Position numbers and translations under genes: made by a program
Shown: piece after piece, positions 3,496 to 22,050 of the stretch
Position numbering within the stretch: position 1 is the first letter of the stretch
Layout of the letters: the number at the start of each line of letters is the position of its first letter
Notes under the pieces: generated by a model
Seen by the model: the letters and a program-made list of their open reading frames with translations, nothing else
What the model was told of the DNA's origin: nothing
The model's database searches: none
Origin: a virus
DNA length: 22,350 bases
IMG/VR virus record: IMGVR_UViG_3300009012_000009
Coordinates: 1-22,350 of that record
Direction: 5' to 3' (one strand)

Positions 3496-3894
3496 ATGGC
3501 GATCACGCTCAGCGCCGCAGCGGCCAGCACGGCAGCCGATGCTCTCTGCGCCTTGCTGAATGGCGGCAAGGTGCGCTTGTATGACGGGGCGCGACCGATC
3601 ACCGCGGACACGGCCATTACCACGCAGGTGCTCCTCGCGTCACCCACCTTTGCGAATCCGGCCTTTGCGGCCGCGGTGAGCGGTGTGGCAACGGCGAATA
3701 CGGTCGTCTCAGATAGCGACGCGGCTGCTAGTGGCACTGCGACCTTTTTCCGGGCGGTGACGAGTGGCGGGGCATCGGTGTGTGATGGATCAGTAGGTAC
3801 CGCTGATGCGGATTGCATCTTGTCGAGCGTGAGCATTGTGGCGCATGGCACCGTGTCGATCACCTCTGTGATTTATCGTCAACCGCTGGCGTAA
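3496..3894 (+). CDS. Small beta-rich virion protein, paralogue of N-terminal domain of next fibre
   Basis: A 132-aa Ala/Thr/Val-rich protein starting at ATG 3496, 7 bases after the previous stop. The order is helix (ADALCALLNGGKVRLYDG), TTQVLLASPTFANPAFAAAV, a Ser/Asp/Ala stretch, FFRAVTSGGASVCDGSVG and VAHGTVSITSVIYRQPLA. This is a recurrent phage protein type of unknown function. It is closely similar to residues 27-156 of the adjacent large fibre, including a nearly identical TTQxLLASPTFxxPAFAAAV block, so the two arose by tandem duplication or share a recombined module. Expected to be a structural component. Confidence 0.75.
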   Translation: MAITLSAAAASTAADALCALLNGGKVRLYDGARPITADTAITTQVLLASPTFANPAFAAAVSGVATANTVVSDSDAAASGTATFFRAVTSGGASVCDGSVGTADADCILSSVSIVAHGTVSITSVIYRQPLA

Positions 3895-3903
3895 ACTACG
3901 CTG

Positions 3904-4029
3904 ATGCGATTCCATTATCAGAATCTGCAAGAGACGGATCAGCCACGGAAAGGCGTTGAGATTGTCTTGTCCTCGCGTCGTCGCTACGGCATGCCATCCG
4001 AACACGCGATCCAACAAGCACTCACCTAA
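3904..4029 (+). CDS. Small ORF, 41 aa, hypothetical
   Basis: ATG 3904 to TAA 4027-4029 exactly fills the gap between the duplicated-module protein and the large fibre, ending 3 bases before the latter's ATG. The product MRFHYQNLQE...IQQALT is hydrophilic and basic, unlike the Ala/Thr-rich fibre proteins around it. No clear Shine-Dalgarno sequence is visible; expression could rely on coupling from the gene 9 bases upstream. Position and fit support it, but the length alone is not proof. Confidence 0.5.
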   Translation: MRFHYQNLQETDQPRKGVEIVLSSRRRYGMPSEHAIQQALT

Positions 4030-4032
4030 GCG

Positions 4033-6630
4033 ATGCCCGGTGGCGCGACGAGTGCGACCGCGACGCTGATCGCGAGTCTCCCGTATAGCGACAGTTCCAC
4101 GTCGGCGATGACGGTGGGCACCGCTGGTGCGAATGCGTCGGCGGATGCTGTTGCTGCGCTCTTGAATGGCGGCACGATCAGAATTTACACGGCGCCGCAA
4201 CCCGCGAGTGCGGATGTGGCAGTCACCACGCAGACCCTCTTAGCCTCTCCGACGTTTGGGACGCCTGCGTTTGCCGCGGCTGTGGCTGGCGTCTCCACCG
4301 CGAATGCCGTCATCGCGGATGGCAACGCGGCCGCCAGTGGAACCGCGAACTGGGCGCGCTTCGTCACCAGCGGCGGCGCGACAGTCTATGACGGCACCGT
4401 CGGGACAACGCCTGCAGCTCACTGTCGACTACCGAGCACAACGATCACCATTCACGGCACCGTGTCGGTGACGAGTGCGCGCTATCAATCGCCGGTCATC
4501 GATCGCGGCCGATGGTACAAATATCTTGCTGCTACACCTGCCGTGCCGAACGAACTCGGAGTGTTCGTCTACACGGCCGGCAGCAATAACTTAGACCTGC
4601 GGGTGTACACGCCGGATGCCGTCACGCCCTATCAGGCAGGGAACCTCTTTCCGTTCACAGCCATTCGCAATAAGCCCATCCAGTTTCCCGTCAGTGCGGG
4701 CGTCGCCTATTATCTGAATGTCTTCGGCGCCGGGAACGCGGGCGATTACACCCTGTCAGTCCTTGCCGGCGCGACCGATCCGGCCCCCATTGGGTCGATC
4801 TTCGTCAATGATGATCATCTCGCGTGGCCCCTGGTCATCCTGTCCGCGATCGATGGCACGCCGCTGCGGTATATCTCCCCGTTTCCCATTGGCGAAACCG
4901 CGGACATCCTCGCCACGGGCACCTATACCGGGCGCATCCTTGTGCATGACCGGACCAACACCGTTACCGATGATCGACTGAAACTCTACTCGCCACATTT
5001 CGATCTGTTGGCCGATGTGCAATACCTGATGGCGACGGATAGTCAAGTCTGTCCGATCATGTCGAATAAAAGCATCCGCTTTTATATCGGCCGCGGCACA
5101 GATGCCGCGAATGCAAATCATGCCACCGTGACGACGGTTACGGCGACCGGAGCGTTTGGCGCGACGACGTGGAATCTGCCGGCGGCTGGCCTGCGCAGCC
5201 TCGCGCCATCGGTTGATGAGACGATCCTCTATGTGACTGGTCAGGGCGGGTTCCTCAACACGCCGGTCAAACGGTGGGATCTCGTCAATGCCGTGTTTCT
5301 GTCGGATCTCGCGGCCGGCATTCCCAACTACTTCGTCACGTTTGCGTGCGGGATGCTCGTCCTGAATGACGATACGATTCTCGTCAGTTACGAAAACAAT
5401 GTCAGCGAGAACAATCCCCCGATGGTGAAGCACTATGCCACCGATGGCAGCGTGCTCAACACCTACACCATGACGGGGAGTCTCAGCAAAGATGTCCGAT
5501 TGACGCATGCGCTGGACGATCCAGCGAGCTTTTGGATGTGGACGAAGGCCAATACCGGGATCAATCGCTTCACGAATCTCCGCGTCAGTGATGGCGCCAC
5601 CCTCACGACGTTTGATGTCACGCAATTCGAGAATGGTACGTATGCGGGTGTCGTGTCCGCGACGCCTTCGGCGCGCTTTGGGGCCAGCGAGTCTTGTCCA
5701 TTCCTGATTCTCCGCGTCGGCGTCGGGCTCCCACCCATCACGGGCACGATTGATGTGATCGCGCCACCGCCCAACAGTGGTACCGTACCGAATGCGCTGG
5801 CGCTCACTGGCTATCCGTTACCGCCTCGGCATCTCGAGGCGCTGTGCAGGACCATTATGACCATTGCTGCCTTGTCACCCGATGCCCGTCAGCAGATGTT
5901 CAACGCGCTCGGCGTCATGCTCAGCGGCGGGAAGCTGCTGACGCAGGAAGCTGGCACAACCACGAATCTCGCGACCTACAGCGACTCAGCGTTGACGGTC
6001 GCAAACAGCAATCCCGTGATCGCTGACGCATCGGGACTGCTCGGCCCGATTTACCTGCTACCGCAAGCGTACAAATTCACGCTCTATGACAGCAACGATC
6101 TGCTCCAGTGGTCCCAAGACAACGTGTGGGATGTCGGGGAATTACTCCAGGCGACGATTACGACACTTCAAACGCAAGTCACGGCCAATCTGGCCTTGAC
6201 CGAGACGAAATTCTGCACGACGCAACTCACGATGAATTCGACCGCGACGTTGGCCAACATTGTGGGCCTGACCGGCTTCACGCTTGCGGCTAGCGGCGTT
6301 TATGCCTTCGAGATCAATCTCGCGGGGACCAGCACAGCGAATGGTGGGTTGAAAATTGCCTTCAAGTACACAACCGCGACATTGACCAACCTCGAGGCGA
6401 CGGCGCAAGGCTTCACGGCGAGTGCCGTGGCGGTGCAGCATACGACGACGACGACCGATCAGGCGACCTTGTTCGGGCAGACGGCCGCGGTGATCAGCAT
6501 TCGCATCGTGGGCCGGTTGACGGTGAATGTGGCGGGCACGCTGGCCGTCCAAGCCGCGCAGAATGCTAGTCACAGCGATACCTCGGCGATCTACATTGGG
6601 AGTTCAGCGCGGTTCACGAAAGTGTCCTAA
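4033..6630 (+). CDS. Large mosaic tail/head fibre protein
   Basis: An 865-aa fibre built from several modules. Residues 27-156 copy the small protein encoded just upstream. Residues about 158-245 (GRWYKYLAAT, LDLRVYTPD, AYYLNVFGAGNAGDYTLSV) look like a pre-peptidase C-terminal-type beta sandwich. Residues about 250-585 form a repeated beta-strand region with SVDETILYVTGQGG and LVLNDDTILVSYENN, consistent with a beta-propeller. Residues about 595-695 contain the phage-fibre segment GGKLLTQEAGTTTNLATYSD and AYKFTLYDSNDLLQWSQDN. A short coiled coil (TITTLQTQVTANLALTETK) leads to the C-terminal module shared with the protein at 2835-3488. No peptidase or glycan-hydrolase catalytic motif was recognised. 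Likely host-surface contact. Confidence 0.82.
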   Translation: MPGGATSATATLIASLPYSDSSTSAMTVGTAGANASADAVAALLNGGTIRIYTAPQPASADVAVTTQTLLASPTFGTPAFAAAVAGVSTANAVIADGNAAASGTANWARFVTSGGATVYDGTVGTTPAAHCRLPSTTITIHGTVSVTSARYQSPVIDRGRWYKYLAATPAVPNELGVFVYTAGSNNLDLRVYTPDAVTPYQAGNLFPFTAIRNKPIQFPVSAGVAYYLNVFGAGNAGDYTLSVLAGATDPAPIGSIFVNDDHLAWPLVILSAIDGTPLRYISPFPIGETADILATGTYTGRILVHDRTNTVTDDRLKLYSPHFDLLADVQYLMATDSQVCPIMSNKSIRFYIGRGTDAANANHATVTTVTATGAFGATTWNLPAAGLRSLAPSVDETILYVTGQGGFLNTPVKRWDLVNAVFLSDLAAGIPNYFVTFACGMLVLNDDTILVSYENNVSENNPPMVKHYATDGSVLNTYTMTGSLSKDVRLTHALDDPASFWMWTKANTGINRFTNLRVSDGATLTTFDVTQFENGTYAGVVSATPSARFGASESCPFLILRVGVGLPPITGTIDVIAPPPNSGTVPNALALTGYPLPPRHLEALCRTIMTIAALSPDARQQMFNALGVMLSGGKLLTQEAGTTTNLATYSDSALTVANSNPVIADASGLLGPIYLLPQAYKFTLYDSNDLLQWSQDNVWDVGELLQATITTLQTQVTANLALTETKFCTTQLTMNSTATLANIVGLTGFTLAASGVYAFEINLAGTSTANGGLKIAFKYTTATLTNLEATAQGFTASAVAVQHTTTTTDQATLFGQTAAVISIRIVGRLTVNVAGTLAVQAAQNASHSDTSAIYIGSSARFTKVS

Positions 6631-8072: not shown

Positions 8073-9209
8073 TTACGGTTGATCGTCGGGTGATTGCGCC
8101 GCAGCGAGCACGGCCGCCCGAATCAACTGCGGCGACACTTTGGCGACTGATCCCGCTGCTCCATACGCCCCGCGTGCGAGCAGGGATTTGAACATCGGGC
8201 TGCGGTCAGCCAAGGCCGTCAGAAACGTCATTGGATTGTGCGTCACCCAGGCAAAACCGATCGGGTCACGATTGCCAGACATGGCCACGCGGCGTCCCAC
8301 CACATCGGCGGCTTGCAGGAGTTTTCCTTCACGGGCATTCAGGGCCGACACGGCGGGCACTTCAGTGGCAATTTCCTCTTTCAGCCCACGCGCCAAGCCT
8401 TTCTGCGCTTCAATCGTTGCTGATTTGAGCTCGCCGTACTTCCCCGCGAGCTGGCGATACGTGCCCGTTTTCAACGCTTGCGCCTGTTCAATCGGTAAGC
8501 GGCTCCCACCATACGCCTCGAGGAATTCGTTGCCGACATCAGCTACCGCTCCGAGGTCACTGGCCGGATTGACTTGCTGGCTGACGTGTTGGGCGACGGG
8601 CGTCAACCGGGTGACGACGGCGTGAGGGCTAATAGTAGCAGTCGATCCGGCGAGCGCGTCTTTGATTTGCTCATTCGTCGCATCGATCAATGCGCCCAAC
8701 TTGGCTTGTCCCGCTTTCGTGATTGAAATGCCCTCATCAAGCAAGGTTTTGACCAGTTGCGGCGTGCCGCCCGTCGCGCGCTTCGCTGCGGCGAGTGTCG
8801 GTTTGACGGCTGACTGCATCAAGCGAGTGCCGCCTGCTCGCAGCGCTGCGCCAGTGCCAAGGCCCACGGCTTCAGGGACAGCGCCTTGCCAGACACCTTC
8901 CTTTGCCACCGCTTGCACCGCTTCAAGCGGCGTGCTGGGTGCTGGGCGTCCGCGCGCACGATTGATGAGTTGCTTGTAGGCTTCTGCGCCACCGGCGCCA
9001 AACAGCCCACCGACGACCGTGCCACCAGGACCGAGCACGGAGCCGGTGAGGCCGCCCACAATCCCGCCAGCGACCGGCAGCTTATTGATGGCCCAATCCG
9101 CCCAACTTTCCGGTGTTTTCGGTGTCGGTGAAGGCGTCGGACTGACATCTTCGGCGCGAAAGGTTGTCGGCGCGTCGATCTCGGCGGCCGTGAACTTGAC
9201 GGTCTGCAC
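8073..9209 (-). CDS. Ejection/internal virion protein candidate
   Basis: A 378-aa protein starting with GTG 9209 that shares one base with the TAG of the preceding gene, so translation is coupled. After a Pro/Thr linker, residues about 45-80 form a Gly/Val-rich hydrophobic segment (LPVAGGIVGGLTGSVLGPGG, then VVGGLFGAGG), of the sort that enters membranes. The rest is mainly Ala-rich helix with charged turns. Podoviral ejection proteins, packed in the head and released to span the cell envelope during DNA entry, have this makeup and lie next to tail genes. No lytic transglycosylase motif is visible. Assignment is by composition and position. Confidence 0.6.
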   Translation of the reverse strand: MQTVKFTAAEIDAPTTFRAEDVSPTPSPTPKTPESWADWAINKLPVAGGIVGGLTGSVLGPGGTVVGGLFGAGGAEAYKQLINRARGRPAPSTPLEAVQAVAKEGVWQGAVPEAVGLGTGAALRAGGTRLMQSAVKPTLAAAKRATGGTPQLVKTLLDEGISITKAGQAKLGALIDATNEQIKDALAGSTATISPHAVVTRLTPVAQHVSQQVNPASDLGAVADVGNEFLEAYGGSRLPIEQAQALKTGTYRQLAGKYGELKSATIEAQKGLARGLKEEIATEVPAVSALNAREGKLLQAADVVGRRVAMSGNRDPIGFAWVTHNPMTFLTALADRSPMFKSLLARGAYGAAGSVAKVSPQLIRAAVLAAAQSPDDQP

Positions 9210-10789
9210 TATTTCACTCCGACGCCTTCGTAGCTGCCATCGGGATTGATTTTCGTCACCCGCAAGCGAACGCCTTTGACCGTCACAATCTCACCGAGTT
9301 TCGGCGCTGGTGTCGCGGTGACTGTTGGCGTCGGTATCGGCGCGGGTGTGCTCGACAGGCCCGCCGCGCCGATACTCTCGATGGAGTTCTGTCGAATCTT
9401 CAGATTCGTGCGGGCGAGTTGAATGGCGCTGAGCAGTTGATCCTTCGTCCAATCGGCCGACAGGTTCTTTTGTGCGAGGCCGAGCGCATGATCGGTCGGG
9501 GAGTTGCCGCCCATGTAGACGTTGCCGAGTTCGGAGGTCACGTCGGTGATCTGGGCCTGGAGATTGGTCGCAATTTGCTGAGCCTTCGGGCCGAGGGCAC
9601 CATTCACGGCGGCGGCGAGTTGAACTTTGTTCAGGATTGGAAACTTGCCGGCATCCCACTGCTTTGCCAAGTCTTCAATGACGCCTAGTGAGTCGGATGC
9701 TGTACTGATCGCTTGTCGGAGTCGCGTTTGCTGCGCGCCGTTCAACGTCGCGACATGCTTTTGGGCGGCTTGCCAGTCGAGATTGGCTTTGGTCAGATCG
9801 TATCCACGCTTGGAGAGTTCGGCGCGGACTGGACCAGCCATCCGATACAGCCCTCTCACATCAGGCGGTTGCAAGCCTTGCTCAATGGCATCCGCGATCG
9901 AAGCAGCATCGGTGGTTGTTTGCTGAAGGGTGACGGCTGATGCCGGCGGAATAGCTTTGACTTGGCCGGTGACATCTTTCCCTTGATACATCCACTTGCC
10001 GCCCGAGCCGTCTTTGTTCGGCACGTAATCGACGGGCACATCGCCGACGCCGGGCAAGCGCATCGTGTGGGTTTGCGACGGTGACGGCTTCTCAGGCGCC
10101 GTATAGATCGGTTGATTCGTGGTCGGATCCACCAACGTGCCGCCCGCGGGCACTTCGCGCGGCTTGATACGTTCGCTCGCCCCTTTCGACTGCTGGATGT
10201 AGCGTGCTTTGACGGCCGTTCGCGCCTCGGGCGGCATCGACAGATTCCGATTCGCTTCCTCGCGCGTGATCCACTGATTACGCGCCGCGACACCGTTGAA
10301 GACTTGCCAATCGCCCTCGTTGGTCACATCCAGGCCCACGGCGCTATTGCCCAGGCTTTCTCGGTTCTGGTCGAGTAACCGCCCGCGCAACTCCTGCGTC
10401 TTCGCCGCTTCCTCATTCCATTTCGTGCCCTGCTCCAAAATCTTCGGCACGTAATGGCCCATCTTGTTGGCTTGTGCAACCTTCGTGGCCTTTTCGATGC
10501 TGAAGTGGCCTTCATCATCCCAAATCGGCTGGCTCCAGACGTAATCGAGCGCGTCCTGCTCGCCTTGGGCGCGCTGCTCGCCGCGGAGGCGCAGGTCGGT
10601 GAGCTGTTGCTCGGAGGCCGCTTGCTGGTTCAACCGCTGCTCGCGCGACTTCAGCAGATTCTGCTCGGCAACCTGCTGCGGGATCGCGCCGATGTTCTGG
10701 ATGGCCTCTCCCCAAATTCGGCCACGTTCGCGCGCCGCGGCGGCTTGGGATTGGCCGTAAGCGGTGAGAATTGCAGCGACATCACTCAT
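9209..10789 (-). CDS. Large helical internal-virion/ejection-type protein
   Basis: A 526-aa protein from ATG 10789. Residues 1-90 are a coiled-coil-prone Gln/Arg/Glu segment (AYGQSQAAAARERGRIWGEA, QQVAEQNLLKSREQRLNQQ). A Pro-rich middle (residues about 210-260) precedes a beta patch (KDGSGGKWMYQGKDVTGQV). Residues about 290-470 are Ala/Leu/Gln helices, then a Pro/Thr linker and a small C-terminal beta domain (GEIVTVKGVRLRVTKINPDGSYEG). This architecture recurs in proteins of podovirus-like metagenomic phages next to ejection genes. The start is weakly marked; a perfect 10-bp hairpin lies 37 nt upstream. The pentanucleotide cassette separates it from the rest of its operon. Confidence 0.65.
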   Translation of the reverse strand: MSDVAAILTAYGQSQAAAARERGRIWGEAIQNIGAIPQQVAEQNLLKSREQRLNQQAASEQQLTDLRLRGEQRAQGEQDALDYVWSQPIWDDEGHFSIEKATKVAQANKMGHYVPKILEQGTKWNEEAAKTQELRGRLLDQNRESLGNSAVGLDVTNEGDWQVFNGVAARNQWITREEANRNLSMPPEARTAVKARYIQQSKGASERIKPREVPAGGTLVDPTTNQPIYTAPEKPSPSQTHTMRLPGVGDVPVDYVPNKDGSGGKWMYQGKDVTGQVKAIPPASAVTLQQTTTDAASIADAIEQGLQPPDVRGLYRMAGPVRAELSKRGYDLTKANLDWQAAQKHVATLNGAQQTRLRQAISTASDSLGVIEDLAKQWDAGKFPILNKVQLAAAVNGALGPKAQQIATNLQAQITDVTSELGNVYMGGNSPTDHALGLAQKNLSADWTKDQLLSAIQLARTNLKIRQNSIESIGAAGLSSTPAPIPTPTVTATPAPKLGEIVTVKGVRLRVTKINPDGSYEGVGVK

Positions 10790-10914: not shown

Positions 10915-11159
10915 TCAGGTCGAGTGGGCTCAGGTATGGCCCGGTTTGGTCAGGTATGGTCAGGCGAGATCAGGCATGGCAAGGCTTGGTATGCCAGGGT
11001 AGGCCGGGATTGGGCGGTGTGCGGTATGGCGCGGCAAGGTACAGCGAGGTTGGGTGTGACAGGGTTGGGTCAGGTATGGCGAGGCAGGGTTCGGTTTGCT
11101 CGGGTCAGGCACGGCTAGACGAGGTTCGGCAGGGTTCGCTTCGATGTGGCATGGCGTGG
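10915..11159 (+). repeat. YNNGG pentanucleotide array 1 (49 units)
   Basis: Forty-nine consecutive 5-nt units with no indel; units start at coordinates divisible by 5. Read by eye, position 1 is C or T in 49 of 49, position 4 is G in 46 of 49 and positions 4-5 are GG in 36 of 49, while positions 2 and 3 vary. Typical units: TCAGG, TATGG, CATGG, CAAGG, TTCGG. It ends 21 nt before the ATG of the cassette gene, in its sense orientation. Confidence 0.92.
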
Positions 11160-11167
11160 CTTTATTT

Positions 11168-11173
11168 GGAGGG
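11168..11173 (+). promoter_or_regulatory. Ribosome-binding site of cassette gene
   Basis: GGAGGG, 7 nt before ATG 11181, lies just outside the array. It decides the start: the open frame back to 10851 would read through the whole array and is probably not translated. Confidence 0.8.
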
Positions 11174-11180
11174 TAGAGCG

Positions 11181-11831
11181 ATGGCACAAAACCAAGAGAC
11201 TGAAATTGGCCCCGTTGACAATTCAGCAAAAGGACTCATCGCATTCGGCGAGCCGTACATGGTACGCGCGATATTGGTCGGCGTAGCTGACATCTTGTTT
11301 CACCGATGGTCCGTAGAAGGCGTGGAAGCGAAGGGTCGAGCGGCGAAAGGATCAAAGGCGAAGCGTTCCGACGATTTAGAAAGTTACGTATGGAGGGACG
11401 ATCTCGGCCGACTGTGCGTGCCCGGTGAGTACGTCAGGCAATCAGTCATCAATGCGGCCAAGTTCCGACAAGATCCGCGCAGCCCGCGTAAGTCTGCAAT
11501 GGACCTATACAAAGCTGGCGTCGTGTCACTCACGCATCTTGCGCCAGTGAATGCGAACGGCACGCCACTCGATGCGAAGCCACAAGCGTGGGATTACGAG
11601 CATCGGTGCCGGGTCACGGTGCAACGCAATGGCATCACGCGGACGCGACCGGCGATGAAAGCAGGTTGGACAATCACTTGTGATTTTTTGATCAATTTAC
11701 CGGAGTATGTCGCACCCGATGCGCTTCATGATGTCCTGGTCAACGCTGGCCGTCTGATCGGTCTGGCTGATTTCAGACCGAGCTATGGCCGATTTGCCGT
11801 CAAGTCTTTCGAAGGATTGATCCTCGAATAA
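11181..11831 (+). CDS. Array-flanked protein, possible RAMP (Cas7-like) fold
   Basis: A 216-aa protein on the + strand inside a minus-strand operon, with pentanucleotide arrays on both sides. Residues 26-47 give a beta strand (YMVRAILVGVADILFHRW). A basic loop (KGRAAKGSKAKR, 51-62) and a short beta hairpin lead to LCVPGEYVRQSVINAAK at 78-94, like the strand-PG-helix step of RAMP proteins. Near the C-terminus GLADFRPSYGRFAV (194-207) resembles the Gly-rich RAMP loop. No nuclease or helicase motif is seen. Similarity is by eye only, so homology is unproven; a single-strand annealing protein or another small RNA/ssDNA-binding fold are alternatives. Conserved arrays on both sides suggest the gene and repeats work together. 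Confidence 0.7.
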   Translation: MAQNQETEIGPVDNSAKGLIAFGEPYMVRAILVGVADILFHRWSVEGVEAKGRAAKGSKAKRSDDLESYVWRDDLGRLCVPGEYVRQSVINAAKFRQDPRSPRKSAMDLYKAGVVSLTHLAPVNANGTPLDAKPQAWDYEHRCRVTVQRNGITRTRPAMKAGWTITCDFLINLPEYVAPDALHDVLVNAGRLIGLADFRPSYGRFAVKSFEGLILE

Positions 11832-11839
11832 CGACCAAT

Positions 11840-12154
11840 TGCGGCTCGGCGTGGTGCGGTCGGTCTGGGTACGGTTCGGCGTGGTGGGGCATGGTTAGGC
11901 TCGCTGGGACAGGACTTGGCACGGCGGGGTAAGGCTAGGTGGGATAAGGCGAGGTACGGTGCGGCATGGCCAGGTGTGGCAAGGTCGGATTTGCTAAGGC
12001 GTGGTAAGGCGTGGCGCACTCAGGCGGGCTAGGATTTGGTCTGGTTCGGCGGGGTGGGGCACGGTCAGGCAAGCTGTGGCATGGTGCGGTCGGATTAGGC
12101 GAGGCAAGGCTAGCTGCGGTGAGTTACGGCAGGATTCGGTATGGCATGGTATGG
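11840..12154 (+). repeat. YNNGG pentanucleotide array 2 (63 units)
   Basis: Sixty-three units in unbroken 5-nt phase beginning 9 bases after the stop of the cassette gene. Position 1 is a pyrimidine in 63 of 63, position 4 is G in 62 of 63, and GG occurs in 48 of 63. Same strand and same unit as array 1, yet the unit order is not a copy of array 1. Ends 3 bases before the TAA of the minus gene at 12158. Confidence 0.92.
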
Positions 12155-12175
12155 CCCTTATCCTCCATATAAGGG
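12155..12175. other. Hairpin at the end of array 2
   Basis: CCCTTAT at 12155-12161 pairs with ATAAGGG at 12169-12175 around a 7-nt loop, starting directly at the array edge; five T's follow 8 nt later (12184-12188) on the + strand. It may end or protect a + strand array transcript, but it also lies over the last codons and stop of the minus gene at 12158, so it is a weak terminator candidate only. Confidence 0.4.
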
Positions 12176-12922
12176 TACGCTGGTTTTTGTGCTTTGTCCG
12201 GCTGAAAGTCCACCGGCGTACAAGTCTCGATATCGGTTCCAGGGATCTTGTGATTGGGTCAAGAAGTTTTCTTGATACTTTCTGAACGCCCTGTCATATG
12301 CTGCGCCGTATTCGCCGGACGCGTAGTCTTGCGCGTACCGATTCAAACTTTTCTGCGTGCCACCACTCAAAAGTGAACCCTGTGCGGCTGCGCTCCGTTC
12401 GAGGGCCTGTTGCCCCATGGCCATACGAGCTTGATAACCGGGCTCGGCTTGTAAGTCTGAAAGCGATGGAGCTTGGAACGGTGGCGGGATCGCGCCTGGT
12501 CCCGTGTAAGGACCACCGCCTGCCCCGCCTGCTCCTGCGCCACCAGCGCCCCCTTGGGGAATCCAAACGGGATGCCCTTCACCAAAACCGACGCGCACCC
12601 ACTGCCCATTCGGGAGCTGGATCTTCGTCTGATCACCGACGGCGTTCGGCGGCGTGATCTTGAAGCCGTATTGCTGCAACGTCGGAGCGAGTTCGTTGAA
12701 GGTCTGTTGATTCCACGGCCGATTCCCGACCAACTGCATGAACCATTGCTGTTCGTTGCCGGGTGTGGGGCCACCGCCGCCTGTCAACGCGCCGGATTGC
12801 GAGCCGTAGACGTTCGGCATGGTCGGTGAACCGGGTGTACCAGCGGTCTGCGTCTGCATGCGGCCCGCTTGTTGGCTCCACCAATCACTGCCGCCGTCCG
12901 TCAACGCGAATTGGTTCGGCAT
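12158..12922 (-). CDS. Virion/DNA-transfer-type protein
   Basis: A 254-aa protein from ATG 12922, 3 bases after the TAG of the previous gene. The N-terminal half is Gly/Gln/Pro-rich with a small folded part (QLPNGQWVRVGFGEGHPVW) and a Gly-Ala linker (about 125-145). Residues about 150-230 carry the recurrent phage pattern QQALERSAAAQGSLLSGGTQ followed by LNRYAQDYASGEYGAAYDRA and a QDPWNRYRDLYAGG segment. I know this pattern from phage proteins encoded among podoviral tail and DNA-transfer genes. Function in the virion is inferred. The stop codon lies against array 2, which marks the edge of the inserted cassette. Confidence 0.7.
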   Translation of the reverse strand: MPNQFALTDGGSDWWSQQAGRMQTQTAGTPGSPTMPNVYGSQSGALTGGGGPTPGNEQQWFMQLVGNRPWNQQTFNELAPTLQQYGFKITPPNAVGDQTKIQLPNGQWVRVGFGEGHPVWIPQGGAGGAGAGGAGGGPYTGPGAIPPPFQAPSLSDLQAEPGYQARMAMGQQALERSAAAQGSLLSGGTQKSLNRYAQDYASGEYGAAYDRAFRKYQENFLTQSQDPWNRYRDLYAGGLSAGQSTKTSVPLYGG

Positions 12923-12925
12923 GGT

Positions 12926-14041
12926 CTATCCCACCACTTGCGCGCCCGCCTGCTGATAAAATGACACATGCTCTTGCGGCACGGCTTTGGTGCTCCCATC
13001 GGGCGCTCGCATTGTGATCATCTGTCCAACTGAAGCCGGACGCGGCACCGCGGTGCCTTCGGCTGGTCCGCCTGGTGTCGCGGGTCCGCGCTGACGGATA
13101 TCCGGCTGCACGGCTCCGGTTTCCGATCCCGTGACGCCGGGCCAGGTCTGCGCGGGAGCAAACTGGCTCGGATCGAGGCCGAGAATCTGGGCCATCCGTG
13201 CCCCAGCGCTCTGACCGAGGTTCATGTAGGGCTGCATCCGAGCATTGAACTGCCCATAGCGTTGCGCTTCGAGATTCTGGAGGTACTGATCACGTTGCTT
13301 GGCGTAGGCCAAGGCTTCGCGGGCGGTCTGGGCTTGAATTTCGGCAGCTTTACTGATCCCGCGAGACTGGATGCCCGCCCCGATCAGATTACCCGCCGTG
13401 CCGATCACCGCTCCACCTGCGGTACTGCCGAGAAACTTGCCGACGCCGCCCAGCCAGCTACTCGCACCGGTTCCCGCCGTACCGCCGCTCATTCCAGCAG
13501 CCGCTTCGGTCGCGACATCGGCTCCGAGCGCTCCTGTCGCCCCAGTCGTGCCTGCTGCACCGGCCGTGATCGGGGCCGTGGCGGCTGGCGCGGCACCGGA
13601 GGCCACGCCGGTGCCCGCGCCAGCCTCTCCAGCCCCAGCGGCTCCACCGCCGCCCGTGAGCGCTTGGACGGCATATGGGGCGACCACGGGGGCCGCCATC
13701 AAGGCAATCGTCGTTTTCGGATGCTTTGCGGCCCAGACCAAGGGCGAGAGCGCACTATGGCCCCCTTGCTCCATACTGACGACCCGGCCGTTCTCAAGCC
13801 GATAATCGGTGTCCCCTACGCGAACGGTGGTCGATTGACCGCTCCGCAGCGCCGTTTGAATGCGCGGATCTTGCAGCTCGGCGCGCACCTCTGGCGAGAG
13901 GTTCGGATTGCTCGGGTCGGTGGCCGCATACCGATGGGCCGCTTGATAGAGGCGCGCTTCGGCCAACGTCATGGCGACGGGGCCATTCGGGGTAGGGACC
14001 CAAATCTTGCCGGCCGGGGGTGAGGCGTAACGGTTCGCCAT
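12926..14041 (-). CDS. Ala/Gly-rich ejection/neck-type virion protein
   Basis: A 371-aa protein from ATG 14041. Order: N-terminal helical part (VAMTLAEARLYQAAHRYAA), a small beta part (TTVRVGDTDYRLENGRVVSM), a hydrophobic segment (TTIALMAAPVVAPYAVQAL, about 110-128), a long Gly/Ala/Thr low-complexity stretch with a second hydrophobic patch (STAGGAVIGTAGNLIGAG), then a helix (ISKAAEIQAQTAREALAYAK, YLQNLEAQRY) and a C-terminal motif (ITMRAPDGSTKAVPQEHVSF) often found at C-termini of phage virion proteins. This fits a protein released with the DNA, forming or lining a channel. It directly precedes the gene at 12158-12922, probably in the same complex. Confidence 0.65.
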   Translation of the reverse strand: MANRYASPPAGKIWVPTPNGPVAMTLAEARLYQAAHRYAATDPSNPNLSPEVRAELQDPRIQTALRSGQSTTVRVGDTDYRLENGRVVSMEQGGHSALSPLVWAAKHPKTTIALMAAPVVAPYAVQALTGGGGAAGAGEAGAGTGVASGAAPAATAPITAGAAGTTGATGALGADVATEAAAGMSGGTAGTGASSWLGGVGKFLGSTAGGAVIGTAGNLIGAGIQSRGISKAAEIQAQTAREALAYAKQRDQYLQNLEAQRYGQFNARMQPYMNLGQSAGARMAQILGLDPSQFAPAQTWPGVTGSETGAVQPDIRQRGPATPGGPAEGTAVPRPASVGQMITMRAPDGSTKAVPQEHVSFYQQAGAQVVG

Positions 14042-19592: not shown

Positions 19593-21866
19593 CTAGGCAC
19601 TTCCCTTCATTGAACCGAAATTCACCATCGCCGTTCGGATGGCTAGGAGTAAAACGAGAACGCTTGCGAAATTGGCATTGATCTTCGTTGGATCAGCCAA
19701 TCCGGTGGTCGTCACATCCACACATGATGATGCGGCGGTGCCACCCGTACTATCAGTAAGTGCGGCCTGACCCGCCGCTGCGGGCTGGACGATTGGAGTT
19801 TGGTTCCACACTGAAAGTTTCTGCGATGTCGCTGTGCCAATCTTCGTGCCGGTTGTCGCATTGACCGCAATATCACCAGCATCGGGAAGGATCAGACCGC
19901 CACCGAAGGTGATAGCGCCTGACGTAATTGGAACTGAAATTGCGGCTGTCGGTGTGGCCTCGACGCCGCCGTAATCCCATGTCGCTACCCGCGCCGTGCC
20001 GGTGCTGCTGCCGTTGACCGCGCCAAAGCGGAATTGGTTGGCCGTCGTCTTCCAATCGAGCTTGAACCACTCCCCGGCGGTGTCCACCGTGGTGAAGGTG
20101 TTGTAGATGCGAAACTTCTGCGCGGTCGTCAGGGCATTGAGGTTACGCTGCGCTAGGACATTCGCCCCGTCGCGCATGAGATTCACATCTGCGCCGCTGG
20201 TGGCATCCGCCGACGAACTCCAGCCAAACCCTTGGGCTGAGCCGACTTGCAATGTTCCTGTAGATCCCGCTAAGAGGCACAACCGATTCGTCGTGCCGTC
20301 GTAGACGGCGAACCGATTGGAGTTCTGATAGATGAGTGTGGCAGACGACCCAAGGTTGATCCCGCTCGTAAACGTATTCGCATTACCTGTGAATGTTTGA
20401 ATCGCATCCGTGCGTGCGATGGTGGCAGAAGTCGTCGGGAAGGTCATTGTGGTCGCGTCGGTGCCCGCCAACGTCAATGTGTTATTGAATGTCAGCGTCT
20501 TGCCTGCCACACCCGTCAGCGTGTAGGTGCCCGTCGTGAAGGTGTTGCCATTCAGACTGGTCGCTGTCGCCACACCGAGCACGGGCGTGACCAGCGTCGG
20601 AGAGGTCGCGAGCACGTTGTTGCCCGTGCCCGTGGAGGTGTTCCAGCTGACATCCGTGCCATCGCTCTTGAGCACCGTATTCGCCGCGCCAATCGCCAGC
20701 CGCGCCCACTTGGGCGTGCTGTTCCCGATGATCAGATCGCCGCGCACGACCGAGGCCGCGAGAGTGTCGCCGTGCGTCGCGCTGAGGACGTTGTGCGCCG
20801 TGACGCTGGTCAGATAGCCGCTGTCATTCGTCCACTGCGAGATGTTCCCAGTCTTGTTCGTGAAGGCTTCAGCCCCAGCGAGCGTCGCTAGCGTGCCGGT
20901 CGTGGGGAAGGTCACGCCCGTCGCTGCCGTCATCGTGAATGTGCTGGCGAATGCGCCCGCCGTCGTGAGGTTACCGCCGAGCGTGATCATGCCGGTGTTG
21001 CTGACGCCCGTCCCGCCATTCGCCGCTGGGAGGATACCGGTGACACCTGTGGTCAACGGGAGACCGCTGCAACTGGTCAGCGTCCCAGATTGGGGCGTGC
21101 CGAGGATGGGTGTCACCAACGTGGGGGAAGTCGCAAACACGGCCGCGCCCGATCCCGTTTCGTCGGTCAGGGCTGCGGCCAGATTGGCGCTGGAAGGCGT
21201 TCCCAGCCACGTAGACACGCCCGAACCGAGTCCGGTGATGCTGGCGAGGGGTAAGCCCGTACAATTGCTCAGAAGGCCACTGGCGGGCGTCCCGAGTGCT
21301 GGTGTTACCAGAGTGGGACTGGTTGCGAACACCAGTGCCCCGGTTCCAGTTTCATCCGTCATGGCGCTGGCGAGATTCGCGCTTGACGGCGTACCGAGAA
21401 ATGTGGCGATACCAGTCCCGAGGCCCGTCAGATCCGCTAGCAGTAATCCGCTGGCTGTTGGTAATCCGGCGCTGTAACGAATGTATTGACCCGTCGAACC
21501 AGCAGTGAGGGGCGTTGGTGTGCCGGTGCTCGCGAGATATGCGATATCGCCGGTATTTGCTAATGCGCCCGGACTTCTAAGTAAGCCGCCTGCGCTCAAA
21601 ACATGGAACACGCTTGCGCCAGATGAATGCGCAGCAGCGACCGTGCTCTCGGCGGCTCTCGTGATAGTCCAGACCGGACCGATGAGGGCGCTGACGATCA
21701 TCAATTCGTTGTCGATCAGAATTCTGAATTGAGGAACGGCAGGAAAGGACGATGCTGAAGTAACCGTTAGACTGGTATCAGCAGCAAGAATGCTGCTGGC
21801 GAGCGTCGTCCATGCGGCGCTTGGTGTGCTTAAAACGGGCGCGTTCGCGAATTGTTCAAGAGCCAA
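19593..21866 (-). CDS. Tail fibre with long repeats
   Basis: About 757 aa. I prefer TTG 21866, which gives a MALEQFAN start typical of this fibre type, with AGGT 13 nt upstream; the longer TTG at 21893 lies in the T-run of the terminator. Residues about 20-85 are the small domain also seen in the protein at 1744. From about 135 to 270 it repeats LGTPSSANLA / TDETGTGALVFATSPTLVTP / LGTPASGLLSNCTGLPL units, a hallmark of long phage fibres, followed by GGNLTTAGAFASTFTM- and TFPTTGTLA-type repeats. The C-terminus has a predicted helical end (INANFASVLVLLLAIRTAMV). Likely an adhesin or distal fibre; nearly identical repeats make it prone to recombination. Confidence 0.85.
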   Translation of the reverse strand: MALEQFANAPVLSTPSAAWTTLASSILAADTSLTVTSASSFPAVPQFRILIDNELMIVSALIGPVWTITRAAESTVAAAHSSGASVFHVLSAGGLLRSPGALANTGDIAYLASTGTPTPLTAGSTGQYIRYSAGLPTASGLLLADLTGLGTGIATFLGTPSSANLASAMTDETGTGALVFATSPTLVTPALGTPASGLLSNCTGLPLASITGLGSGVSTWLGTPSSANLAAALTDETGSGAAVFATSPTLVTPILGTPQSGTLTSCSGLPLTTGVTGILPAANGGTGVSNTGMITLGGNLTTAGAFASTFTMTAATGVTFPTTGTLATLAGAEAFTNKTGNISQWTNDSGYLTSVTAHNVLSATHGDTLAASVVRGDLIIGNSTPKWARLAIGAANTVLKSDGTDVSWNTSTGTGNNVLATSPTLVTPVLGVATATSLNGNTFTTGTYTLTGVAGKTLTFNNTLTLAGTDATTMTFPTTSATIARTDAIQTFTGNANTFTSGINLGSSATLIYQNSNRFAVYDGTTNRLCLLAGSTGTLQVGSAQGFGWSSSADATSGADVNLMRDGANVLAQRNLNALTTAQKFRIYNTFTTVDTAGEWFKLDWKTTANQFRFGAVNGSSTGTARVATWDYGGVEATPTAAISVPITSGAITFGGGLILPDAGDIAVNATTGTKIGTATSQKLSVWNQTPIVQPAAAGQAALTDSTGGTAASSCVDVTTTGLADPTKINANFASVLVLLLAIRTAMVNFGSMKGSA

Positions 21867-21891
21867 TGTCGGGCATTTTACCTGTGTACAC

Positions 21892-21922
21892 AAAAAAGGC
21901 TGACAGTGATTAACTGTCAGCC
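21892..21922 (-). terminator. Rho-independent terminator
   Basis: Read leftward: GGCTGACAGT (21922-21913), loop TAATC, ACTGTCAGCC (21907-21898), then six T's (21897-21892). A perfect 10-bp stem with a U-run is a strong intrinsic terminator. It ends the transcript that carries the 66-aa gene and array 3, and lies 25 nt before the preferred fibre start, so the fibre needs its own promoter or read-through. Confidence 0.88.
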
Positions 21923-21924
21923 CA

Positions 21925-22029
21925 CCTTGCCAGACCCAGCCTTAGCGCGCCGCACCACGCCACATCTCATCGCGCCCAGCCCTATCGCACCGGACCGTGG
22001 CATACCAGACCGAGCCGAACCACGCCGCA
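21925..22029 (-). repeat. YNNGG pentanucleotide array 3 (21 units, minus strand)
   Basis: On the + strand this reads CCNNR; on the minus strand it is YNNGG in fixed phase. Position 1 is a pyrimidine and position 4 is G in 21 of 21; GG occurs in 16 of 21. It begins 21 nt after the stop of the minus gene at 22051 and runs up to the terminator stem, so it would form the 3' UTR of that transcript. It lies about 9.8 kb from array 2, in the sense direction of its own operon. Confidence 0.88.
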
Positions 22030-22050
22030 AGCCTTGATTATAGCTGAGAT

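Follow-up and report, generated by a model that had tools for sequence, protein, structure and literature searches.

A phage-borne VIPR locus with long in-phase YNNGG tracts and predicted guides against other phages

The cassette near the middle of the window, the window being the whole stretch of 22,350 nucleotides analyzed here (positions 1 to 22,350 of IMG/VR virus record IMGVR_UViG_3300009012_000009), is very probably part of a phage-borne VIPR system whose guides are aimed at other phages. This kind of system has been known since April 2026, when a preprint (PMC13142463) described how Vipr, a family that binds YNNGG RNA, acts with vrRNAs of 9–16 YNNGG repeats between competing phages, the NN letters recognizing double-stranded DNA with a one-nucleotide skip. 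The code was worked out there mainly in the SUSP1 and Pseudomonas fulva clades, with dsDNA binding by SUSP1 and silencing from either strand; seven VIPR types of differing architecture are described, for which a vap gene is typical but not universal (PMC13142463). What is new relative to the main text of the preprint is the in-phase tracts of up to 116 units, a separate tail-fibre guide, a codon-box hint, and decoding across a whole clade. Among the matches listed, as judged by titles and the beginnings of abstracts, there was no work on YNNGG guide RNAs other than PMC13142463. The features of the locus, in window coordinates, are the following:

10930–11159, plus strand: tract A1, upstream of vipr, 46 units scored, or 49 when the weaker three that start at 10915 are included
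11090–11149, plus strand: predicted A1 guide, units 33–44, targeting the vipr codons T-D/E-D/E-L-D/E-S-Y-V-W-R-N-D/E
11181–11831, plus strand: vipr gene, 216 residues, predicted RAMP-fold Vipr protein, with GGAGG ahead of the start
11376–11396, plus strand: the virus's own copy of the A1-targeted motif, with Leu TTA, Ser AGT, and Arg AGG
11840–12154, plus strand: tract A2, 63 units, downstream of vipr
11865–11924, plus strand: predicted A2 guide, units 6–17, targeting the vipr motif V-N-L-P-E-Y-I-P-x-D-V
12155–12175, plus strand: weak hairpin directly 3′ of A2, a possible 3′ end or tail
21897–21923, minus strand: terminator-like 11-pair stem with a T run, immediately 3′ of A3
21925–22029, minus strand: tract A3, 21 units, read 22029–21925
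22037–22042, minus strand: TATAAT, a possible –10 element a short distance upstream of A3, noticed by eye

Tracts were scored for a pyrimidine at position 1 and GG at positions 4–5 with a period of 5. A1 scores 29.5 and A2 39, whereas the best of 100 single-base shuffles of the window reaches 4 (plus strand scored); A3 scores 13.5. These are the arrays of 49 and 63 units that an earlier note, made from the letters alone, had described in strict 5-nucleotide phase flanking a gene of 216 codons; the scorer places 46 units in A1, and three weaker ones ahead of them make up the 49. That note had placed the system between 10915 and 12154, and it was right about the two tracts and the gene but missed the third tract near 22 kb. 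Its description of the unit also holds: position 1 is C or T in 109/109 scored units of A1 and A2, all four bases are used at positions 2–3, and position 4 is G in 44/46 units of A1 and 62/63 of A2 (106/109 together, which becomes the 108 of 112 of the note when the three extra A1 units are added). Position 5 is G in 37/46 and 48/63 units, respectively, and the spacing of the units that deviate from GG appears roughly periodic to the eye, from which we draw no conclusion. The 24 of 109 units that deviate at position 5 are what might be expected of degraded tracts, formerly used and now non-functional, but a relic of this kind is very unlikely in view of the nearly invariant Y1 and G4 and of guides whose matches in viral contigs, related or other, reach 24/24 and 40/42 bases (see below).

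Several familiar classes of repeat were considered for the tracts and rejected. Tandem Repeats Finder reports short imperfect fragments only, which speaks against an ordinary tandem repeat, and neither its output nor the unit lists contain the long identical repeats with unique spacers of a CRISPR array, in keeping with what the earlier note had said on both counts. A known RNA family is likewise not indicated, since nothing in the window reaches the gathering score of an Rfam family, and ARAGORN finds no tRNA or tmRNA there. As for the ends of the tracts, the promoter scan gave no sigma-70-type promoter near A1/A2 or A3 and no full promoter at the TATAAT of A3. The stem and T run behind A3 probably form the 3′ end of the A3 guide RNA; the 46-base stretch after A2 folds no better than shuffles (z –0.94). 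Three unrelated sequences follow A1, A2, and A3, with no shared 3′ tail among them. Because architectures vary among the seven types (PMC13142463), the missing common tail speaks against type II, not against VIPR.

The gene between A1 and A2 encodes what is, as judged from profile comparison and a predicted fold, a Vipr protein, a small RAMP. A single-sequence search of the PDB returned two chains, SUSP1 Vipr (36pp) with an E-value of 1.1e-4 and a second with an E-value of 1, and a profile of 27 homologues run against PDB sequences had 36pp as its sole match (E 1.3e-10). Alignment to SUSP1 Vipr with hhalign gave a probability of 98 and an E-value of 2.1e-13, with 28% identity across 155 aligned columns. 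The protein also matches PHROG 4652 (function unknown; E 1.9e-13); searches of Pfam, PADLOC, and NCBIfam gave nothing. An AF2 model (mean pLDDT 87) yielded 125 Foldseek matches at E ≤ 1e-3 to Csm and type VII CRISPR RAMP chains, with TM values of about 0.5 and 9–14% identity; 36pp is absent among the best 50 of the 125 (library up to 8 April 2026). The fold thus resembles that of class 1 CRISPR effectors (Csm3/Cas7 and type VII Cas7), with which Vipr would share a periodic handling of guide RNA; unlike in class 1 CRISPR, an array of identical repeats and spacers is not seen and the pairing is non-contiguous.

The genomic surroundings of the cassette are those of a phage. Its flanking open reading frames lie on the minus strand, one of them matching a DNA-ejection family, and several further genes of the window have matches among head, ejection, and connector families of phages. 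No vap gene was recognized beside vipr. IMG/VR contig 3300009137_000006 carries an identical vipr (100%) together with a piece of an Hc3-like gene at 98%, and a search with the Hc3-like protein matches this virus's contig only. In a comparison aimed at an empty site, neither the flanking gene 9209–10789 nor 12926–14041, the gene past the direct neighbor 12158–12922, has a match in the phage collection.

The association between tracts and gene was followed across relatives. Three relative searches, together with phage DSL-LC04 and the window, yielded a set of 141 usable vipr loci, which merge at 95% into 108 clusters; these come from viral contigs and from bacterial assemblies, a large share of which are metagenome-assembled. 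From the 333 relatives reported by the profile search of viral contigs, 80 were retained. Of the first 34 loci, L001, which is this virus, and seven nearly identical copies were set aside; so were L159, again this virus, and the partial matches L273 and L274 among the loci of the later searches. In 93 clusters the sequence extends 1.5 kb or more to either side of the gene, and 89 of these have a tract within 1.5 kb of vipr: only upstream of it in 22, only downstream in 27, and on both sides in 40; the remaining 4 have none. Over all 108 clusters, 241 of 254 tract segments are near vipr, 238 of these 241 share its strand, and segment length has a median of 17 units and a maximum of 116 in phase. 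The co-occurrence of array and gene homologue that the earlier note had proposed as a check is therefore found, and this co-occurrence, together with the Vipr/RAMP homology, supports its suggestion of a single system made up of array RNA and protein. In 14 relatives searched against Rfam, tRNAs are the only families present; unlike the VIPR arrays interspersed with hammerheads, neither these relatives nor the window have a ribozyme match.

Strict 5-base phase with variable letters, in tracts of up to 116 units, could also mark a structural or protein-binding repeat, such as a packaging site or a nucleoid or origin element, whose NN letters would be uninformative. The two readings can be told apart by the matches of the NN letters. 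We slid 3378 twelve-unit windows from the 108 loci over the fetched loci (5.2 Mb, both strands counted). With one target base skipped between pairs, 292 windows match at ≥21/24 bases, as against 3 at skip 0, 4 at skip 2, and 5 with shuffled unit order; at ≥22/24 the numbers are 106 and 0 for each of the three controls. Skip 3 was omitted because tracts match themselves at that skip. The windows overlap and many of the targets are homologous, and the 292 matches are not independent events. Within vipr genes alone, scores of 21–24 occur at skip 1 only, with none at skip 0, 2, or 3 or in five shuffles. After merging, 125 guide-target pairs remain. Of these, 64 fall in vipr genes, 59 at other places on contigs that carry vipr, and 2 in pattern-selected contigs; none of the 125 is a self target. 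The window's own A3 matches are excluded from both the 292 and the 125, and stretches selected with the A3 pattern served as possible targets of other guides only. The 64 vipr pairs originate from seven tracts of six loci, and in all 64 the skipped base is the wobble position of the codon. At the level of sequence, these counts show that the skip-1 code of VIPR is also used in this divergent Vipr clade. The excess of matches at skip 1 and the codon frame of every vipr target already contradict a purely structural repeat, which we regard as extremely unlikely.

The sense of the pairs differs between the two kinds of target. Sixty of the 64 vipr pairs are antisense to the target gene; in the 59 non-vipr pairs the longest frame is in the guide register in 38, of which 30 are sense and 8 are antisense, or 13 and 6 if every source array counts once. 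The longest open frame at the target differs from the register of the guide in 20/64 vipr pairs and 21/59 others. The best non-vipr targets are a ParB frame (22/24), a ParB-methylase (24), and DUF669 (24 and 23), followed by a DUF3799 nuclease (22/24) and an AlpA-like HTH regulator (23/24). A DEAD-box helicase frame is matched at 21/24 in several contigs. A lone 21/24 in an integrase frame may be due to chance, as shuffles also yield a few scores of 21. With vipr genes and a tail-fibre motif (see below), the decoded targets thus include ParB-domain, ParB-methylase, DUF669, DUF3799 nuclease, and AlpA-like regulator genes, and because the tracts reveal their targets, a network of phage-against-phage targeting becomes computable from metagenomes.

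Each of the two long tracts of the window contains one such guide against the vipr genes of other phages. The NN letters of the A1 guide, read on the other strand with a one-base skip, match 24/24 bases in the vipr gene of L019 and at least 21/24 in 34 vipr genes; the A2 guide matches 22/24 in the vipr gene of L005 and at least 21/24 in 11 vipr genes. On another contig, L193, a second vipr-like frame (12097–12897) is matched by the A1 guide at 22/24. The guides within the long tracts span about 12–16 units, as the short tracts elsewhere do, and the long tracts therefore look like several guides in a row; A1 in particular is probably several guides in succession with no separators. About 80 of the 109 A1 and A2 units gave no convincing target (tblastn covering the decodes of A2).

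Other ways of reading A2 and A1 were tried and rejected or yielded little. As a single long target, A2 gave no convincing phage match to its 63-codon decodes in either reading (best E 4 and 3), and of the 16 and 27 stretches of viral contigs matched by its two-variant decodes, with two short patterns each, none was confirmed. A pattern from A1 units 19–28 had no match. One from A2 units 44–53 had a single match at 20/20 bases, in a P22-like coat-protein gene (L275 9766–9794), which on extension to units 44–57 reached 25/28 bases against 21 as the maximum in each of four shuffles, with the skip off the wobble base. Given the weak extension and the register off the wobble position, we do not claim this gene as a target.

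Since the skip falls on the wobble base, the guides would read codon positions 1 and 2 and tolerate most synonymous changes, and protection of the phage's own gene by a switch of codon box is a simple, testable prediction of such a code. The virus's own Vipr retains D-D-L-E-S-Y-V-W-R at the site targeted by A1, and its Leu, Ser, and Arg codons are all in boxes that the A1 guide does not match. Among 32 other homologues that share these three residues, not one has all three codons off the guide (none off in 10, one in 17, two in 5). In 18 other frames of the same genome, off-box codons make up 14/219 for Arg, 132/509 for Leu, and 215/426 for Ser, with a product of about 0.008. At the same site, which could be compared in 101 sequences (7 of 108 lack a recognizable site), only L018, whose guide is directed against it, has Asn in place of Glu or Ile in place of Val; Glu is replaced in 5/101 and Val in 4/101. 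Across seven anti-vipr arrays, the own vipr gene scores 16–18/24 against 21–24 for the best target. Depletion of self-matches was not seen in these arrays, 17–93% of other vipr genes scoring no higher than the own gene, and self-avoidance as a general rule is accordingly unsupported. The codon-box switch that may protect the own vipr is, given this result, a hint from one post-hoc case.

The third tract, A3, can be read as LSQFAATTSAQLAGVISDET(A), that is, L-S-Q-F-A-A-T-T-S-A-Q-L-A-G-V-I-S-D-E-T-A, with two residues possible at several codons, and in this decoding its target can be read as a widespread phage tail-fibre motif. One reading matched 15 phage records, the best being a tail-fibre protein over all 21 residues (E 0.02); the other 14 (E 0.7–9) are 12 virion structural proteins, one structural protein, and one "ribonuclease E". 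A 24-base pattern made of all fixed bases of 12 of the 21 units has matches in at least 120 viral stretches. Over the 104 complete sites that are distinct, a mean of 12.3 (8–16) of the 18 bases outside the pattern match, compared with 4.5 by chance. All 124 complete occurrences have the skip on the wobble base of the longest open frame, and all 124 are antisense to the gene. The best sites match 40/42 bases; other skips reach at most 26, except for the array itself at skip 3. The virus's own genome reaches at most 25/42, the level of wrong skips elsewhere. A3 lies immediately upstream of a long tail-fibre-like frame of this virus (19593–21893, minus strand), and its decoded motif is that of other phages' tail fibre, not of this one.

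The predominance of antisense sites, in 60/64 vipr pairs and at every complete A3 site, means that the vipr and A3 guides could pair with mRNA too, and a VIPR system that in this clade silences mRNA, antisense-like, rather than DNA has to be weighed. The non-vipr targets occur in both senses, and SUSP1 binds dsDNA and silences from either strand (PMC13142463), which makes mRNA targeting unlikely here. We therefore keep to DNA as the probable target of the guides.

With DNA as the target, the YNNGG tracts would be transcribed into guide RNAs (vrRNAs), and Vipr subunits would grip the letters GG-Y, which are conserved, so that every NN pair stays unbound. The NN pairs would then base-pair with one strand of the target DNA, one target base being skipped between pairs. 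One guide in each long tract would be directed at the vipr genes of other phages and A3, set apart near 22 kb with a terminator-like stem of its own, at the tail-fibre motif. The likely outcome is that the DNA of rival phages or prophages in a shared host is bound and its transcription silenced. The tracts, the gene family, the predicted fold, the co-occurrence, the decoded targets, the in-frame skip, and the lack of an equal self target are read from sequence; guide RNA production, the protein-RNA complex, DNA binding, and silencing are carried over from the preprint. The recurring 5-nucleotide protein contact that the earlier note had suggested stands insofar as the conserved letters form a frame held by the protein in the model of PMC13142463, but the information would reside in the variable NN pairs.

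A more detailed joint reading can be offered tentatively, at somewhat less than an even chance. Guides of 12–16 units, strung together without tails, would be sorted by Vipr loading or by phased processing, and one transcript could thereby arm the phage against several rivals. The anti-vipr guides beside the phage's own vipr would disarm competing VIPR systems first, and the separately transcribed, terminator-tailed A3 guide would attack a very widespread tail-fibre motif. A switch of Leu, Ser, or Arg box, these being the sole synonymous changes that would be visible to a wobble-skipping code, would meanwhile protect the phage itself.

In comparison with characterized systems, the locus shares with the VIPR of Escherichia phage SUSP1 (type II) the Vipr family, YNNGG tracts on both sides and on the strand of vipr, the one-nucleotide-skip code, and wobble-aligned targets in phage genes. 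Our analysis of SUSP1 shows its tracts in this arrangement too. SUSP1 has a vap gene and four separate vrRNAs of ~100 nucleotides that share a conserved structured tail (PMC13142463), whereas the window has long tracts, no common tail, no recognized vap, and one guide 10 kb from vipr. Its tracts contain 21–63 units against the 9–16 repeats of the vrRNAs in PMC13142463. As in the P. fulva prophage clade, some guides target other VIPR systems; in that clade 36 vrRNAs aim at one prophage locus, mainly at lysogeny-switch regulators (PMC13142463), whereas the targets here are conserved vipr motifs and a tail-fibre motif. We claim no new VIPR type for this clade because the preprint, in its main text, mentions "staggered arrays with overlapping vrRNAs" as well as single-vrRNA systems (PMC13142463).

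Some further observations were made on the relatives. Two frames recur beside vipr, a DEAD-box helicase frame ~0.6 kb downstream in 18/108 loci (e.g., L178 8490–9809) and another ~0.7 kb upstream in 21/108 loci; these are candidate accessory genes or simply the replication module of the phages. L024 has two long tracts (3623–4254) in which the GG-deviating units CGATA, CGATC, and CGACA recur, mostly 11–13 units apart and often after CATGG, possibly as guide boundaries or as tails embedded in the tract. In L009 (3855–3867) and L033 (3693–3705), a similar short palindrome, GGCCGAARGGCC, interrupts the tracts and is perhaps a processing or boundary element. In phage DSL-LC04 (L035), whose vipr gene is annotated as a helix-turn-helix regulator, a tract of about ten units lies inside an inverted repeat, CTTAGTGGGG ... 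CCCCACTAAG, at ~4817–4890. Scaffold_35_c1 of the cyanobacterium Stenomitos rutilans carries two vipr loci, L239 and L240, that are at least 95% identical and ~100 kb apart, and nine consecutive tRNA genes (5781–6483) lie ~2 kb from the vipr locus of L031. Distant vipr relatives with 29–31% identity are also present in the plasmid records CP126019.1, NZ_CP054617.1, and NZ_CP054621.1 (Bradyrhizobium and Azospirillum).
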